From assembly GCA_024686085.1 (NCBI GenBank), contig JAIBDT010000001.1, forward strand, positions 124,001 to 188,000: a stretch of 64,000 bases of DNA. Reading direction: 5' to 3'. The notes beneath the pieces were generated by a model. It ran no database searches, was not told the DNA's origin, and saw only the letters and a list, made by a program, of their open reading frames with translations. Position 1 is the first letter of the stretch; the number at the start of each line of letters is the position of its first letter. A program made the position numbers and the translations under genes. The DNA comes from Loktanella sp. (GTDB lineage: Bacteria; Pseudomonadota; Alphaproteobacteria; Rhodobacterales; Rhodobacteraceae). Positions 21,773 through 36,105 of the stretch are shown here, piece after piece.

Positions 21773-22393
21773 TTAGTTGGCCGAGCTATCGTAACCAGCG
21801 GTGAAGCCGGACAACGAAATATCCAAAACCACTTCTTCTTCTGGGGCCGCAGCAGGCACCATACGCATGGTGGCCTTGGATCCGCGCTTGAACTGGTTTA
21901 CTTCTTCTTGTGTAAAGCCGACGCGCGACACACAGCCTGCACGGTTACAGAATGTGAACGGATACCGGCGTGTCGCCGAGCCATCGACTGAAATCTGCAA
22001 TTGCTCTGTCAGAAGTGTTTCAAGCGGCACGACAATTGTTGCGCCTGCGGCCGCACGGCCACCATCTGGCAGTGGGAACATGCTGATTTCAGCAACCGAG
22101 TTACCTGCGTCATCGTTCAAAAGCTGATACAGTTGGCATGGATCATCTTGGCCTTCTTCGGCACGCAAGCAGCGCAAGGACCAATCACCAAATGTATCTC
22201 GGATATAAGGTGTGCCAACAGCATCTGCTGCGGCAACTTCCGTGCCCATATCCAGATCAGCGGCAGCTTCGGGTGCAGCTGTTTCTTCGGCAACTGGCGC
22301 GGCTGTTTCTTCAGTTGTTGTTTCTTGCGCGGATACACTGGCAGCAGCAGCGATAAGGCCTGCCAAAAGGAATGGTTTGATATTTTGCAACAT
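21773..22393 (-). CDS. Invasion-associated locus B (IalB) family protein
   Basis: A 206-residue secreted protein from ATG 22393 (GGGAACGA upstream). A signal peptide (about residues 1-22, LLAGLIAAAASVSAQE) leads to a Glu/Ala/Pro-rich linker, then the IalB domain: DTFGDWSLRC, DPCQLYQLL, PFTFCNRAGC and ATMRMVPA. Four cysteines can form two disulfides in the periplasm. In Bartonella the founding member is linked to erythrocyte invasion, but free-living alphaproteobacteria have many homologues of unknown role. A promoter and a repeated 28-bp element lie upstream. Confidence 0.88.
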   Translation of the reverse strand: MLQNIKPFLLAGLIAAAASVSAQETTTEETAAPVAEETAAPEAAADLDMGTEVAAADAVGTPYIRDTFGDWSLRCLRAEEGQDDPCQLYQLLNDDAGNSVAEISMFPLPDGGRAAAGATIVVPLETLLTEQLQISVDGSATRRYPFTFCNRAGCVSRVGFTQEEVNQFKRGSKATMRMVPAAAPEEEVVLDISLSGFTAGYDSSAN

Positions 22394-22422: not shown

Positions 22423-22451
22423 GCTCTAGCATGAGGCAGGTCTTATGTCAG
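22423..22451 (-). promoter_or_regulatory. Promoter of the IalB-family gene
   Basis: Leftwards, CTGACA (22451-22446), a 17-base spacer and TAGAGC (22428-22423) end about 30 bases before the IalB start codon. The 28-bp repeated element lies 12 bases upstream of the -35, a usual place for an activator. Confidence 0.45.
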
Positions 22452-22508: not shown

Positions 22509-22568
22509 GAAAAAGGGACCCGCAGGTCCCTCTTTCGTCGTCTCCCTGTCGGACTTGGCTGACTATTT
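22509..22568 (-). ncRNA. Candidate small RNA 2 (possible sponge of small RNA 1)
   Basis: A consensus-like promoter (22603-22575) would start a leftward RNA of about 60 bases near 22568. It ends at a strong terminator: GGGACC-TGCG-GGTCCC followed by five U (stem 22530-22515). No start codon or reading frame fits. Bases 22542-22557 of the region are complementary, with one mismatch in 16, to the unpaired pyrimidine-rich segment of the neighbouring small RNA (22672-22687). The RNA contains an ACAGGGAG stretch resembling a ribosome binding site, which suits a decoy. Confidence 0.5.
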
Positions 22569-22574
22569 GAACAA

Positions 22575-22603
22575 AATCTACGCAATGGCTCCGATGCGGT
22601 CAA
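22575..22603 (-). promoter_or_regulatory. Promoter of small RNA 2
   Basis: Leftwards, TTGACC (22603-22598), a 17-base spacer and TAGATT (22580-22575) are a close match to sigma-70. No protein gene follows before the terminator at 22515-22530. Confidence 0.55.
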
Positions 22604-22645
22604 CAGGAAATCGACGTTAATGCGTGCAAAGTGTTGATACCTATA

Positions 22646-22727
22646 TAAAAAAGCCGTGCCCTAAGGCACGGCAAGTCTGACAGGGAGGAAACGGTCACCA
22701 CACCGGGGACATGATGGCATGGGACCG
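22646..22727 (-). ncRNA. Candidate small RNA 1 with CU-rich seed
   Basis: Read leftwards from about 22727, the RNA would open with a stem-loop (CGGTC/GACCG outer arms, then CCATGCC with GGTGTGG including two G-U pairs). An unpaired stretch TTTCCTCCCTGTCAGACTT follows, and a strong terminator GCCGTGCC-TTAG-GGCACGGC with six U (stem 22672-22653). TAATCG at 22735-22730 could be its -10; no good -35 was found. The CCTCCC segment could pair with ribosome binding sites, as in other alphaproteobacterial CU-rich small RNAs. Confidence 0.5.
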
Positions 22728-22803
22728 TGCGATTAGACTGGCATGAAAGGGTTAAAAATGTATTTTGGCCCAAAGAATTTTTACGACAAAGGGCTCAAGA
22801 CAC

Positions 22804-24345
22804 ATGACAAATGATATTTTTATCGGCGGCGGTGGTGTTGCTTACGGCGAGGCGCAGCTGCTTTTGCTCGATAAGTCGAACCGTCATGGGTTGATCGCGG
22901 GCGCCACAGGGACAGGTAAAACCGTCACGCTGCAAATTATGGCCGAAGGGTTTTCAAACGCTGGCGTGCCGGTGTTCTTGTCTGATGTGAAGGGCGACCT
23001 TTCTGGGCTTGCGGTATCTGGGACCGAAACATTCAAGTTGCATGAACCCTTTATGAAGCGCGCGGAAACCATCGGGCTTGATCTGCAATACGACAGCTTT
23101 CCCGTCACCTTCTGGGATTTGTTTGGGCAACAAGGTCACCCGATCCGCGCAACAGTCGCCGAGATGGGGCCTTTGTTGCTGTCACGACTCATGGAATTGA
23201 CCGACGTCCAAGAAGGCGTGCTGAACGTGGCCTTCCGCGTGGCGGACGAACAGGGATTGCCGCTGCTTGACCTGAAGGACCTTCAAGCATTGTTGGTTTG
23301 GGTCGGTCAAAACGCTGCCGATTTGTCTTTGCGTTACGGAAACGTGGCGGCGTCTTCGGTTGGTGCGATCCAGCGCCAATTGCTTGTACTTGAGAACCAA
23401 GGCGGCACCGCATTGTTTGGCGAGCCCGCGCTGGAACTGTCCGATCTGATGCGCGTGCGGGCAGACGGGAAGGGCGAGATCAATATTCTCGCCGCCGACC
23501 AACTGATGGGCAGCCCACGGCTATATGCGACCTTCCTGCTGTGGTTGTTGTCAGAACTTTTTGAGGAACTGCCAGAGGTCGGGAACCCCGATAAACCGAA
23601 ATTGGTTTTCTTCTTTGATGAAGCGCACCTGTTGTTTGACGGCGCACCAAAAGCACTGGTCAACAAGGTTGAACAGGTGGCGCGTCTGATCCGCTCGAAA
23701 GGGGTCGGGGTCTACTTTGTTACCCAGAACCCCGGTGATGTGCCAGATGATGTGTTGGGCCAACTTGGCAACCGCGTGCAACACGCATTGCGCGCCTTTA
23801 CTGCCCGCGACCGGAAAGAGCTGAAAACAGCCGCCGAGACTTACCGCGACAACCCGACCTTCGATACCGCAGAAGCGATCCAGCAAGTAGGCACAGGCGA
23901 GGCGGTCACATCTTTCTTGGACAAAAAAGGTATCCCGCAAGTCGTGCAGCGGACCTTGATCCGTCCACCGTCATCGCAGCTAGGCCCAATCGACAAACCT
24001 ACGCGGGATGCGATCATGGCAAGCTCGGACATGGCGGGCAAATACGATGTGACGCTTGACCGGATATCGGCCTCGGAAATGCTGGCAAAGCGCGCTGATG
24101 CGGCGGCGCAAGAGGCAGAAGCTGCTGAAGCAGCGGAAGATGCCGCCGAAGCCAAAGAACGTGAATACAAGAAGGCGCGTCGCTACGATGGCGGCGGGAC
24201 CACGTCGCGCAGCACCTCTCGTCGCTCATCAAAAGATGACGGCTTTGGCGGCGCGCTGGCAAAAGTTGTGATGAAGGAACTCAAAGGCACTACAGGACGC
24301 CGCATTGTGCGCGGCATCCTTGGTGGATTGTTCAAAGGGCGCTGA
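22804..24345 (+). CDS. HerA-like ATPase, DUF853 (YjgR) family
   Basis: A 513-residue P-loop ATPase from ATG 22804. Walker A is GATGTGKT (33-40) and Walker B KLVFFFDEAH (266-275). The family also shows FLSDVKGDLSGL, FVTQNPGDVPDDVL and RAFTARDRKELKTAAETY. The C-terminus has an Ala/Glu-rich coiled coil, a Ser/Arg-rich linker and a basic end (GRRIVRGILGGLFKGR). DUF853 proteins belong to the FtsK-HerA group of DNA-pumping ATPases, but this branch has no settled role. The 370-bp region before it has two small RNA candidates. Its stop codon abuts that of the convergent CorC gene. Confidence 0.9.
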   Translation: MTNDIFIGGGGVAYGEAQLLLLDKSNRHGLIAGATGTGKTVTLQIMAEGFSNAGVPVFLSDVKGDLSGLAVSGTETFKLHEPFMKRAETIGLDLQYDSFPVTFWDLFGQQGHPIRATVAEMGPLLLSRLMELTDVQEGVLNVAFRVADEQGLPLLDLKDLQALLVWVGQNAADLSLRYGNVAASSVGAIQRQLLVLENQGGTALFGEPALELSDLMRVRADGKGEINILAADQLMGSPRLYATFLLWLLSELFEELPEVGNPDKPKLVFFFDEAHLLFDGAPKALVNKVEQVARLIRSKGVGVYFVTQNPGDVPDDVLGQLGNRVQHALRAFTARDRKELKTAAETYRDNPTFDTAEAIQQVGTGEAVTSFLDKKGIPQVVQRTLIRPPSSQLGPIDKPTRDAIMASSDMAGKYDVTLDRISASEMLAKRADAAAQEAEAAEAAEDAAEAKEREYKKARRYDGGGTTSRSTSRRSSKDDGFGGALAKVVMKELKGTTGRRIVRGILGGLFKGR

Positions 24346-35058: not shown

Positions 35059-36105
35059 TTAAGAGATACGAATGCGTGGGTTCAAGAAGACATAACCGAT
35101 ATCAGAGATCAGTTGCGTCGCAAGGACCACGAAAACAGAGACAACCGAAACGCCTAGCAGAAGTTCGATGTCATTGGTCGAGGCTGCCTCAACAAGGGTC
35201 CAACCGAACCCCTTGTAGCTAAACAAGCTTTCAACAATAACGACGCCATTCAGAAGCCAAGGGAATTGCAGCATGATGACCGTAAACGGTGCGATCAATG
35301 CATTGCGCAATGCGTGCTTCATTACGATTGTGCGGAAGGCCACGCCTTTCAAACGTGCAGTGCGGATATACTGCGCCGTCATCACCTCGGTCATTGATGC
35401 GCGGGTCATACGGGCGATATAGCCCATTCCGTATAGGGCGATCGTCAGAACAGGCAGGGTAAAGTTCTCAAAGGTCGCGTCATCCATCGCCGAATTCGCG
35501 TTGCCTTTAAATATCTTCATTCCAAACGTCGCGGTGCCAAAAAGCGCGATTAAGACAACACCTGATACATATTCTGGGGTCGCCGTTGAAATAATAGAGA
35601 AGGTCGACAGGGTCCGGTCTGTGCGCGATCCTTCACGCATGCCCGCCAAAACACCGATGATCAACGCACCGGGGACCATGACCAACATCACAAGACCCAT
35701 CAGTTTGGCCGTGTGTCCAAGGCGGGTCGAGATGATTTCGCTGACGTCTTCTTTAAAGCGCGTGGAATATCCCCATTCGCCTTGCAAGACGCCGCAGAAC
35801 TTCGGGGCATCCGTAGGGTCCTGACCACGTTCCGCGCATCGGCCACGTAATTCACCATCGGATCCTTCGATCACATAACCGGGTAAAATCCCGATCCACT
35901 GACCGTATTTGATTGGCAATGGTTGAGAATAGCCGCGGTTGGCAAGATAGCTGACGACGGCATCGTCAGACATACGCGCGTTACCTTGCGTTTTTGCGAG
36001 TTTCTCGAGATTTGGTGAAAGGTTTGTCAGCCAGAAGACGACAAACGTGAGGCAGATGGCCGTGAGGATCATAACCCCAAGGCGTCGCAGAATGAACAGT
36101 CCCAT
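35059..36105 (-). CDS. Peptide-type ABC transporter permease, DppB-like
   Basis: A 348-residue permease. The N-terminus is typical (MGLFILRRLGVMILTAICLTFVVF) and the coupling motif is YIRTARLKGVAFRTIVMKHALRNA, here read as two blocks. The periplasmic loop between helices 1 and 2 is longer than in DppB and contains two cysteines (CAERG and FCGVLQGEWG). It forms the channel with the DppC-like partner, 13 bases downstream. Confidence 0.94.
   Translation of the reverse strand: MGLFILRRLGVMILTAICLTFVVFWLTNLSPNLEKLAKTQGNARMSDDAVVSYLANRGYSQPLPIKYGQWIGILPGYVIEGSDGELRGRCAERGQDPTDAPKFCGVLQGEWGYSTRFKEDVSEIISTRLGHTAKLMGLVMLVMVPGALIIGVLAGMREGSRTDRTLSTFSIISTATPEYVSGVVLIALFGTATFGMKIFKGNANSAMDDATFENFTLPVLTIALYGMGYIARMTRASMTEVMTAQYIRTARLKGVAFRTIVMKHALRNALIAPFTVIMLQFPWLLNGVVIVESLFSYKGFGWTLVEAASTNDIELLLGVSVVSVFVVLATQLISDIGYVFLNPRIRIS

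Follow-up and report, generated by a model that had tools for sequence, protein, structure and literature searches.

Tandem small RNA genes between ialB and a HerA-like gene in Rhodobacteraceae: an alphaR8/SorX-like RNA and a probable sponge of its family

Between an ialB-like gene and a divergent HerA-like gene of Loktanella sp. lie two short segments that are nearly perfect complements of each other. The question raised by this locus, found within a 64,000-nt stretch of DNA (the window), is whether the segments are arms of a single transcript or parts of two RNAs that act on one another. A first-pass annotation had proposed two leftward small RNAs, a regulator and its sponge, and had named one long stem in a rightward transcript as the alternative. 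The complementarity that it described is borne out, the arms at 22542-22557 (CTCCCTGTCGGACTTG) and 22672-22687 (CAAGTCTGACAGGGAG) matching at 15 of 16 positions. When 22509-22727 was shuffled 2000 times with dinucleotides preserved, this score was never reached, and 14 was reached three times. Shuffles alone cannot prove function, and the case for the pair is carried by comparative evidence. In our reading, the locus probably encodes two separate leftward small RNAs, an alphaR8/SorX-type regulator (sRNA1) and a sponge (sRNA2) for the SorX/SorY/alphaR8-like family. The features of the locus are as follows.

22765-24345, plus strand: HerA-like neighbour, divergent and outside the system.
22647-22735, minus strand: sRNA1, an alphaR8/SorX-like small RNA; outer bounds from the fold and the covariance model, 5′ end inferred.
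22691-22728, minus strand: 5′ hairpin of sRNA1, from the predicted fold and the 5′ regions of homologues.
22673-22691, minus strand: unpaired seed of sRNA1, UUUCCUCCCUGUCAGACUU, from sequence and fold; it opens with the exact alphaR8 core 10-mer.
22647-22672, minus strand: intrinsic terminator of sRNA1, a stem at 22672-22653 and then a U run, from the terminator scan and compensatory stem changes in 59 sequences.
22575-22603, minus strand: promoter of sRNA2, TTGACC-17-TAGATT, from the promoter scan; conserved in relatives.
22509-22570, minus strand: sRNA2, the putative sponge; 5′ end placed by reference to the promoter, with support from model R1 and the fold.
22542-22556, minus strand: anti-seed of sRNA2, AAGUCCGACAGGGAG, from predicted pairing with the sRNA1 seed and with the genome's SorX copy.
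22548-22563, minus strand: 5′ hairpin of sRNA2, GUCAG-loop-CCGAC in the window and GUCGG/CCGAC in most homologues.
22510-22530, minus strand: intrinsic terminator of sRNA2, from sequence, alignment and fold.
21773-22393, minus strand: ialB-like neighbour, downstream of sRNA2 and outside the system; a start at 22393 appears preferable to one at 22432.

The proposed architecture was recovered in the window. The terminator of sRNA1 was found by the scan, with six T after its stem; that of sRNA2, GGGACC-TGCG-GGTCCC followed by five T, is evident in the sequence and forms in the predicted fold, and is missing from the scan output, presumably because A-T pairs lengthen its stem into the T run. The arrangement ascribed to sRNA1, a 5′ stem-loop, an unpaired stretch and a terminator, agrees with its fold (z -4.5), which leaves the anti-Shine-Dalgarno core unpaired. 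The promoter proposed for sRNA2 is present on the minus strand at 22603-22575 and is kept in relatives; taken alone, its nine of 12 promoter matches are at chance level (two such promoters found in the region, 1.7 expected). The description of both stretches as lacking a reading frame proved not to be literally correct, as sRNA1 contains a 19-codon ATG frame along with shorter ones and sRNA2 a 3-codon frame. Adjacent complementary small RNAs, one of them with a frame of 19 codons, could be taken for a type I toxin-antitoxin pair, with a small toxic peptide encoded by one RNA and held in check by the other. By eye, neither a ribosome-binding site nor conservation was seen for the 19-codon frame and the predicted peptide is not hydrophobic, and sRNA1 matches alphaR8/SorX RNAs; a toxin-antitoxin pair is highly unlikely.

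The identity of sRNA1 was approached through its seed, its structure and its Rfam scores. The alphaR8 10-mer UUUCCUCCCU occurs exactly at 22691-22682 and is unpaired in the fold except for its first base; many relatives carry CUUCCUCCCU in its place. As in alphaR8/MmgR RNAs (RF00519, suhB), a hairpin lies upstream of the 10-mer and a Rho-independent terminator downstream, whereas the N-formylglutamate amidohydrolase gene that usually, if not obligatorily, adjoins alphaR8 genes is replaced here by ialB and the HerA-like gene. The score against RF00519 was 30.3 bits, with a gathering score of 41, and because sRNA1 falls below this value it is termed alphaR8-like rather than filed as a member of alphaR8. 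It likewise shares with SorX and SorY of Rhodobacter sphaeroides the seed CCUCCCUGU..GA and the terminator layout, yet scores below both cut-offs (33.2 bits against 46.6 for SorX, RF02784; 18.7 bits against 111 for SorY, RF02651); SorX, in the accessible passages on it, derives by cleavage from an ompR-type mRNA, within its 3′ UTR, whereas sRNA1 sits beside ialB and HerA. A covariance model built from 59 sRNA1 sequences (R2) gave 73 bits for the window copy, which is itself part of the model alignment, and matched R. sphaeroides SorX (39.6 bits) and SorY (34.4 bits). The genome of the window holds, on contig C20, a second full-length sRNA1-type copy (L228) that is SorX by the Rfam cut-off (52 bits). 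Structure is kept among homologues: the 5′ regions of 62 of them fold with a mean z of -2.7 although their sequence drifts, and the terminator shows compensatory changes, one pair being C-G in 29 and U-A in 28 of 59 sequences. We accordingly term sRNA1 alphaR8/SorX-like, and the locus is a new one for a known RNA kind. In the accessible passages of PMC12559287, alphaR8 RNAs are described in all Alphaproteobacteria except Rickettsiales, with paralogues at other loci in Caulobacter.

For sRNA2, no Rfam match at gathering score was found in the window or in five related loci (L048, L053, L057, L060 and L249), and the sole match below the cut-offs was to Atu_C8 (17.6 of 50 bits, E 0.72). The window copy scored 57.8 bits against a covariance model made from 56 sRNA2 sequences (R1), its own among them, and folds with a z of -3.1. 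A promoter of the form TTGAC + TAnnnT lies upstream of sRNA2 in 30 of the 30 loci found with the RNA model, a set selected with no promoter requirement and quoted alone since the motif core search demanded a TTGAC-like box for most loci; the background for TTGAC alone was 153 of 3000 windows. Counted from the first TTGAC, the spacer is 17 nt in 28 of these loci, and by eye the other two fit a second TTGAC. The core, GGCCAGUCCGAC[A/G]GGGAG, is near-invariant, and the near-invariant part of the RNA consists of the anti-seed and the 5′ hairpin; core conservation may partly reflect the hairpin GUCGG..CCGAC itself, which hides part of the anti-seed. Within this hairpin, columns 11 and 24 hold U-A in 44, U-G in 10 and C-G in two of the 56 sequences, and the terminator shows many two-sided changes across the alignment. 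The window copy is alone among the 56 in having an A·C clash in the hairpin, which is absent from its predicted minimum-energy fold; the clash may be real variation or an assembly error of the fragmented genome.

Both genes are widely retained. Of 35 genomes from the same genus, 34 gave a match to the intergenic region at E <= 1e-6, and in G029 the match reached 0.113 only. In a set of 77 loci, collected by way of HerA or through DNA similarity (L034 and L038 being on the same contig), the sRNA2 core was recognized by pattern in 72, that is in all except L079, L083 and three loci with variant cores (L010, L012 and L016). An adjacent sRNA1 was found by motif in 62 of these 72 and not in 10; the 62 is a lower bound, since the motif misses diverged forms such as the R. 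sphaeroides copy. With the covariance models, sRNA1 was found beside 25 of the 30 best sRNA2 loci and not beside five, and sRNA2 beside every one of the 30 best sRNA1 loci. Conservation of the arms together in relatives, which the first-pass annotation had set as a test of its proposal, is thus observed. The other 33 HerA loci (L085-L117, mostly from other orders) showed no pair of cores; neither core was found by a loose motif at the Rhodobacteraceae HerA locus L088 (Fluviibacterium), and at L105, also from the family, the contig stops before the sRNA region.

R1 and R2 match their own member sequences by construction; the family search covered other genomes, a few of which may be near relatives. 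In 198 Rhodobacteraceae genomes, one per genus, R1 was detected in 177, with a single match in 166, and R2 in 188, with at least two matches in 179; some R2 matches cover the terminator only, and in the window genome two of the five at E <= 0.001 are full-length. Both RNAs were detected in 176 genomes, sRNA1-type RNAs alone in 12, sRNA2 alone in one and neither in nine (Fisher p = 2.6e-9), and the corresponding figures for high-quality genomes were 159, 6, 1 and 8 (p = 1.5e-9). These counts were tallied by hand from the family-search tables, with one unlisted genome lacking R1 presumed to be G255, and the 12 genomes with sRNA1-type RNAs alone are to be read with the stricter filters of this search in mind, by which weak matches are lost. 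The co-occurrence is confounded by phylogeny, in that related genera may share an absence by descent. Across a sample of the class (289 genomes, 26 of which are listed, with an unstated share of family members) R1 had six matches, four in the family and two weak ones from beyond the family (30.7 and 26.6 bits). The L058 locus of the pair had no match among plasmids, and no viral contig carried one exact core pattern, both consistent with the pair being a chromosomal gene locus. The architecture of the two genes, their conservation and their co-occurrence are observations made in silico.

The surroundings of the pair bear on the alternative of a rightward transcript. A HerA-like gene lies on the opposite strand in 98 of 103 loci, many of which were fetched through HerA, and is the opposite-strand neighbour in 27 of the 30 loci found by the sRNA2 model; geometrically, a rightward 5′ UTR of this gene could fold the two arms into one long stem. 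The spacing between the arms varies from 106 to 412 nt over 62 loci, R. sphaeroides keeps the pair at a locus lacking HerA, sRNA2 is retained where a second arm was not found, and it is the leftward sRNA2 promoter and the leftward terminators that are conserved. The changes within the arms are also of the G·U type, not those of symmetric DNA repeats. A single rightward stem, as the first-pass annotation had left open, was therefore set aside as most improbable. In the 9-bp block shared with the adjacent seed, a standard pair was formed in 555 of 558 cells (three broken) while the letters vary, the changes being mostly between A-U and G-U and between G-C and G-U. This pattern is in keeping with RNA pairing and not with a symmetric DNA site, though some of these bases are also under constraint from the sRNA2 hairpin. 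A contingency table of letters in the two arms gave 21/6/1/24 (p = 2.9e-8), with the 10 of 62 loci that hold other letter combinations excluded and phylogeny again a confounder.

Duplex energies, calculated with duplexfold and ignoring internal structure, extend the reading of sRNA2 as a sponge beyond the neighbouring gene. In the window genome, sRNA2 is predicted to pair with the sRNA1 seed at -27.4 kcal/mol and with the genome's SorX copy at -31.7 kcal/mol; over 62 cognate sRNA1-sRNA2 pairs the mean was -33.5 kcal/mol, compared with -14.0 kcal/mol for shuffled anti-seeds. All of 21 dispersed SorX/SorY-type copies from 16 genomes were predicted to pair with the sRNA2 of their genome, at -31.7 to -43.2 kcal/mol and with 12-20 uninterrupted bases (18-20 in 10 of the 21), the uninterrupted duplex joining CUCCCUGUUGGACUGGCC to the sRNA2 core. 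Of the 13 genomes with both dispersed and adjacent copies, 10 hold a dispersed copy whose predicted pairing equals or exceeds that of the adjacent one; in G151, G132 and G200 the dispersed copies are slightly or clearly worse. These genomes are a non-random set, for which a listed second copy was required except in the case of the window genome and R. sphaeroides; 16 of 18 gave a readable sRNA2, and G062 and G210 were dropped when the pattern failed to recover it. The one A·C mismatch between the window arms is thereby accounted for: at this position the base in sRNA2 matches a G that SorX/SorY seeds carry.

The proposal of a regulator and a sponge is thus supported as to two leftward sRNA genes, an anti-Shine-Dalgarno seed and a sponge-like partner, and probably does not hold as to a sponge merely private to its neighbour, given the equal or better fit of dispersed copies in those 10 genomes and the persistence of sRNA2 where an adjacent sRNA1 was not found. 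Complementarity to several family members is, like the genes themselves, observed in silico. A wider role is, in our judgement, evenly balanced: in most Rhodobacteraceae sRNA2 may act as a hub, for the most part single-copy, that mimics a Shine-Dalgarno sequence and titrates the whole of the SorX/SorY/alphaR8-like family, in parallel to CrfA of Caulobacter crescentus, possibly with an independent origin, and with its gene usually in tandem with that of one target. As a separate observation, genome G207 carries a tandem pair of SorX-type copies (L265), spaced by about 140 nt and each closed by a terminator.

R. sphaeroides 2.4.1 offers a setting in which these RNAs can be placed on a well-studied chromosome. 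Genome G110 was taken as this strain, being the only one of 198 above the SorY cut-off; SorY was located at 1,632,645, and its published 5′ end is at 1,632,642. On chromosome 1, sRNA2 lies at 1,426,533-1,426,603 on the minus strand, with a diverged sRNA1 (CUUCCUCCCUGAACUGGACUGGCC) just upstream and ialB still downstream. A HerA match is absent from the 9-kb stretch around the pair. The position of HerA is taken by what we presume, from a reading of the translations, to be a catalase gene and then an oxyR-like gene. Predicted duplexes of sRNA2 were -39.0 kcal/mol with SorX, -36.0 kcal/mol with SorY and -34.9 kcal/mol with the adjacent copy.

Neither a description of sRNA2 nor its expression was found in the searchable main texts, which included passages of PMC6238624, PMC7866481, PMC8625941 and PMC5107571, the last on Paracoccus with a list of 16 sRNAs; nor did these texts yield a published effect of sRNA2 on SorX or SorY. 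It may already be listed under an RSs number, about RSs1350 by interpolation.

One published RNA, StsR (RSs0827), was suspected to be sRNA2. In accessible passages StsR is described as a 72-nt sRNA of the Rhodobacteraceae whose target is itself an sRNA, and the suspicion came from a length of 72 nt (with a guessed start, in L069), from sRNA-on-sRNA targeting and from duplexes with the mraZ leader. The identity was rejected on position, sRNA2 lying at the site given above and StsR near 858 kb, as deduced from RSs numbering and complementarity to UpsM. A StsR candidate at about 858.1 kb of chromosome 1 (L259), read by eye from the third- and fourth-ranked scan candidates, carries CUUCACUGUCCC opposite GGGACAGUGAA of the mraZ leader. 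The weakness of the pairing between sRNA2 and mraZ leaders, given below, was a further ground for the rejection. Very probably, then, sRNA2 is not StsR and the two are separate genes. The reported effect of StsR on SorY is only slight in the passages available. A partial 13-nt model match at 875.5 kb of R. sphaeroides was dismissed as it lies inside long open frames.

The mraZ leaders also bear on a further alternative, namely that sRNA2 is mainly a regulator of mRNAs or other RNAs, its match to SorX/alphaR8 seeds being secondary and SorX-type RNAs acting as regulators of sRNA2. In R. sphaeroides, mraZ was located at 694.9 kb and was not found at 712.6-732.5 kb. Leaders could be compared with the sRNA2 of their own genome in 14 of 18 cases, the other four lacking a recovered sRNA2, and pairing was weak against shuffles (mean z -1.6); some leaders pair better than shuffles, the best at z -4.1, and the window leader at -0.29 shows that such pairing is not general. 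Retention of sRNA2 where no adjacent sRNA1 was found, by motif or by model, and the constraint on its 5′ hairpin would agree with mRNA targets; set against them are a near-invariant part made up of just the anti-seed and that hairpin, and the presence of dispersed SorX-type partners in the 16 genomes examined. A mainly mRNA-directed role for sRNA2 is accordingly considered unlikely, though not negligibly so. In several same-genus mraZ leaders (L150, L153-L167), blocks like GCAGUCGGACUUCCC..GGCGGCGGAUUGAU were noticed about 110-150 nt before mraZ, in the UpsM region.

The constancy of the downstream gene raises another possibility, that sRNA2 is the leader of ialB, closed by a leaky terminator, with sRNA1 or SorX-type pairing altering read-through into ialB. 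Downstream of sRNA2 and on the same strand, ialB is found in 102 of 103 loci, the sole exception (L009) being at a contig end, and in all 30 of the loci found by the sRNA2 model. Such an arrangement is known in R. sphaeroides, where UpsM is described as a leader sRNA that also feeds the downstream operon (passages in PMC5089854). Attenuation of ialB is, on the other hand, opposed by the strong terminator that closes sRNA2, by the fit of the sRNA2 core to dispersed sRNAs and by a separate promoter-like block (CTGACA-spacer-TA..) before ialB; counted with a strict pattern, this block is present in 34 of 103 loci, those of the window and of R. sphaeroides among them, and the other 69 do not match the pattern. 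An attenuator is thus regarded as improbable. The block of the window, CTGACA-spacer-TAGAGC at 22423-22451 on the minus strand, lies between the sRNA2 terminator and ialB and is possibly an ialB promoter. At the other end of the locus, sRNA1 is separated from the HerA-like gene by a block at 22735-22764 (AATACATTTTTAACCCTTTCATGCCAGTCT, minus strand); similar blocks, seen by eye in many relatives, could hold the promoter of sRNA1, of HerA or of both.

With sRNA2 read as a sponge, a mechanism can be sketched from these predictions. The sRNA1 seed (UUUCCUCCCUGU..GACU), unpaired between the 5′ hairpin and the terminator, would repress translation by base-pairing at ribosome-binding sites. Some 60-75 nt long, and with a promoter and a terminator to itself, sRNA2 would present a purine-rich core that mimics the Shine-Dalgarno target and pairs with the family seed and adjoining bases. 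It would thereby sequester SorX/SorY/alphaR8-like RNAs, probably with Hfq as the platform and probably with decay of these RNAs as the outcome, so that induction of sRNA2 would relieve their mRNA targets. By analogy, an Hfq-assisted mechanism for sRNA2 is plausible because SorX and SorY are reported to be Hfq-dependent in passages of PMC9438474 and PMC7866481. Transcription of the two genes, this dependence on Hfq, the direction of action (sponge, not target) and a physiological signal are what we infer.

The closest parallel is CrfA. In the accessible passages of PMC12559287, this purine-rich sRNA of Caulobacter crescentus inactivates the alphaR8 sRNAs SisA-D, siblings with the same anti-Shine-Dalgarno seed, hairpin and terminator as the sRNA1 type, through complementarity to their common UUUCCUCCCU 10-mer, and its sponging was established by RIL-seq, structure probing and compensatory mutants, whereas sponging by sRNA2 is inferred. 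Like CrfA, sRNA2 is predicted to pair with the shared seed of several siblings; unlike CrfA as there described, it usually has the gene of one sibling beside it in tandem, and its anti-seed continues beyond the 10-mer to cover the GU..GACUGGCC that follows. In the family and class samples, strong matches to the sRNA2 model were seen in Rhodobacteraceae only, which bears little on CrfA itself, and sRNA2 is set apart from CrfA by description, not by sequence. QrrX of Vibrio, also described in passages of PMC12559287, is similarly one sponge for several siblings (Qrr), in unrelated bacteria and likened to sRNA2 by description rather than sequence. A sponge for sibling sRNAs is thus known as a kind; the variant here lies in the usual tandem placement of the sponge gene beside a sibling and in its retention across most of a family.

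If the sponge reading is right, the SorX/SorY/alphaR8 regulons and mutants would have to be re-read in the light of a common antagonist, and sRNA2 would set the activity of R. sphaeroides sRNAs of photo-oxidative stress and metabolism that were analysed without knowledge of it. One anti-Shine-Dalgarno seed family would then have drawn dedicated sponges in two orders. The sponge reading is directly testable in R. sphaeroides 2.4.1, where sRNA2 occurs along with an adjacent copy and with both SorX and SorY, the last two being characterised oxidative-stress sRNAs in the passages available, and for which deletion and overexpression of sRNAs, StsR for example, have been published according to the same kind of source. 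Elsewhere in the window, at 35303-35481 on the plus strand, a full match to Rfam RF02647, the Ruegeria cis52 sRNA, was obtained at 104 bits.
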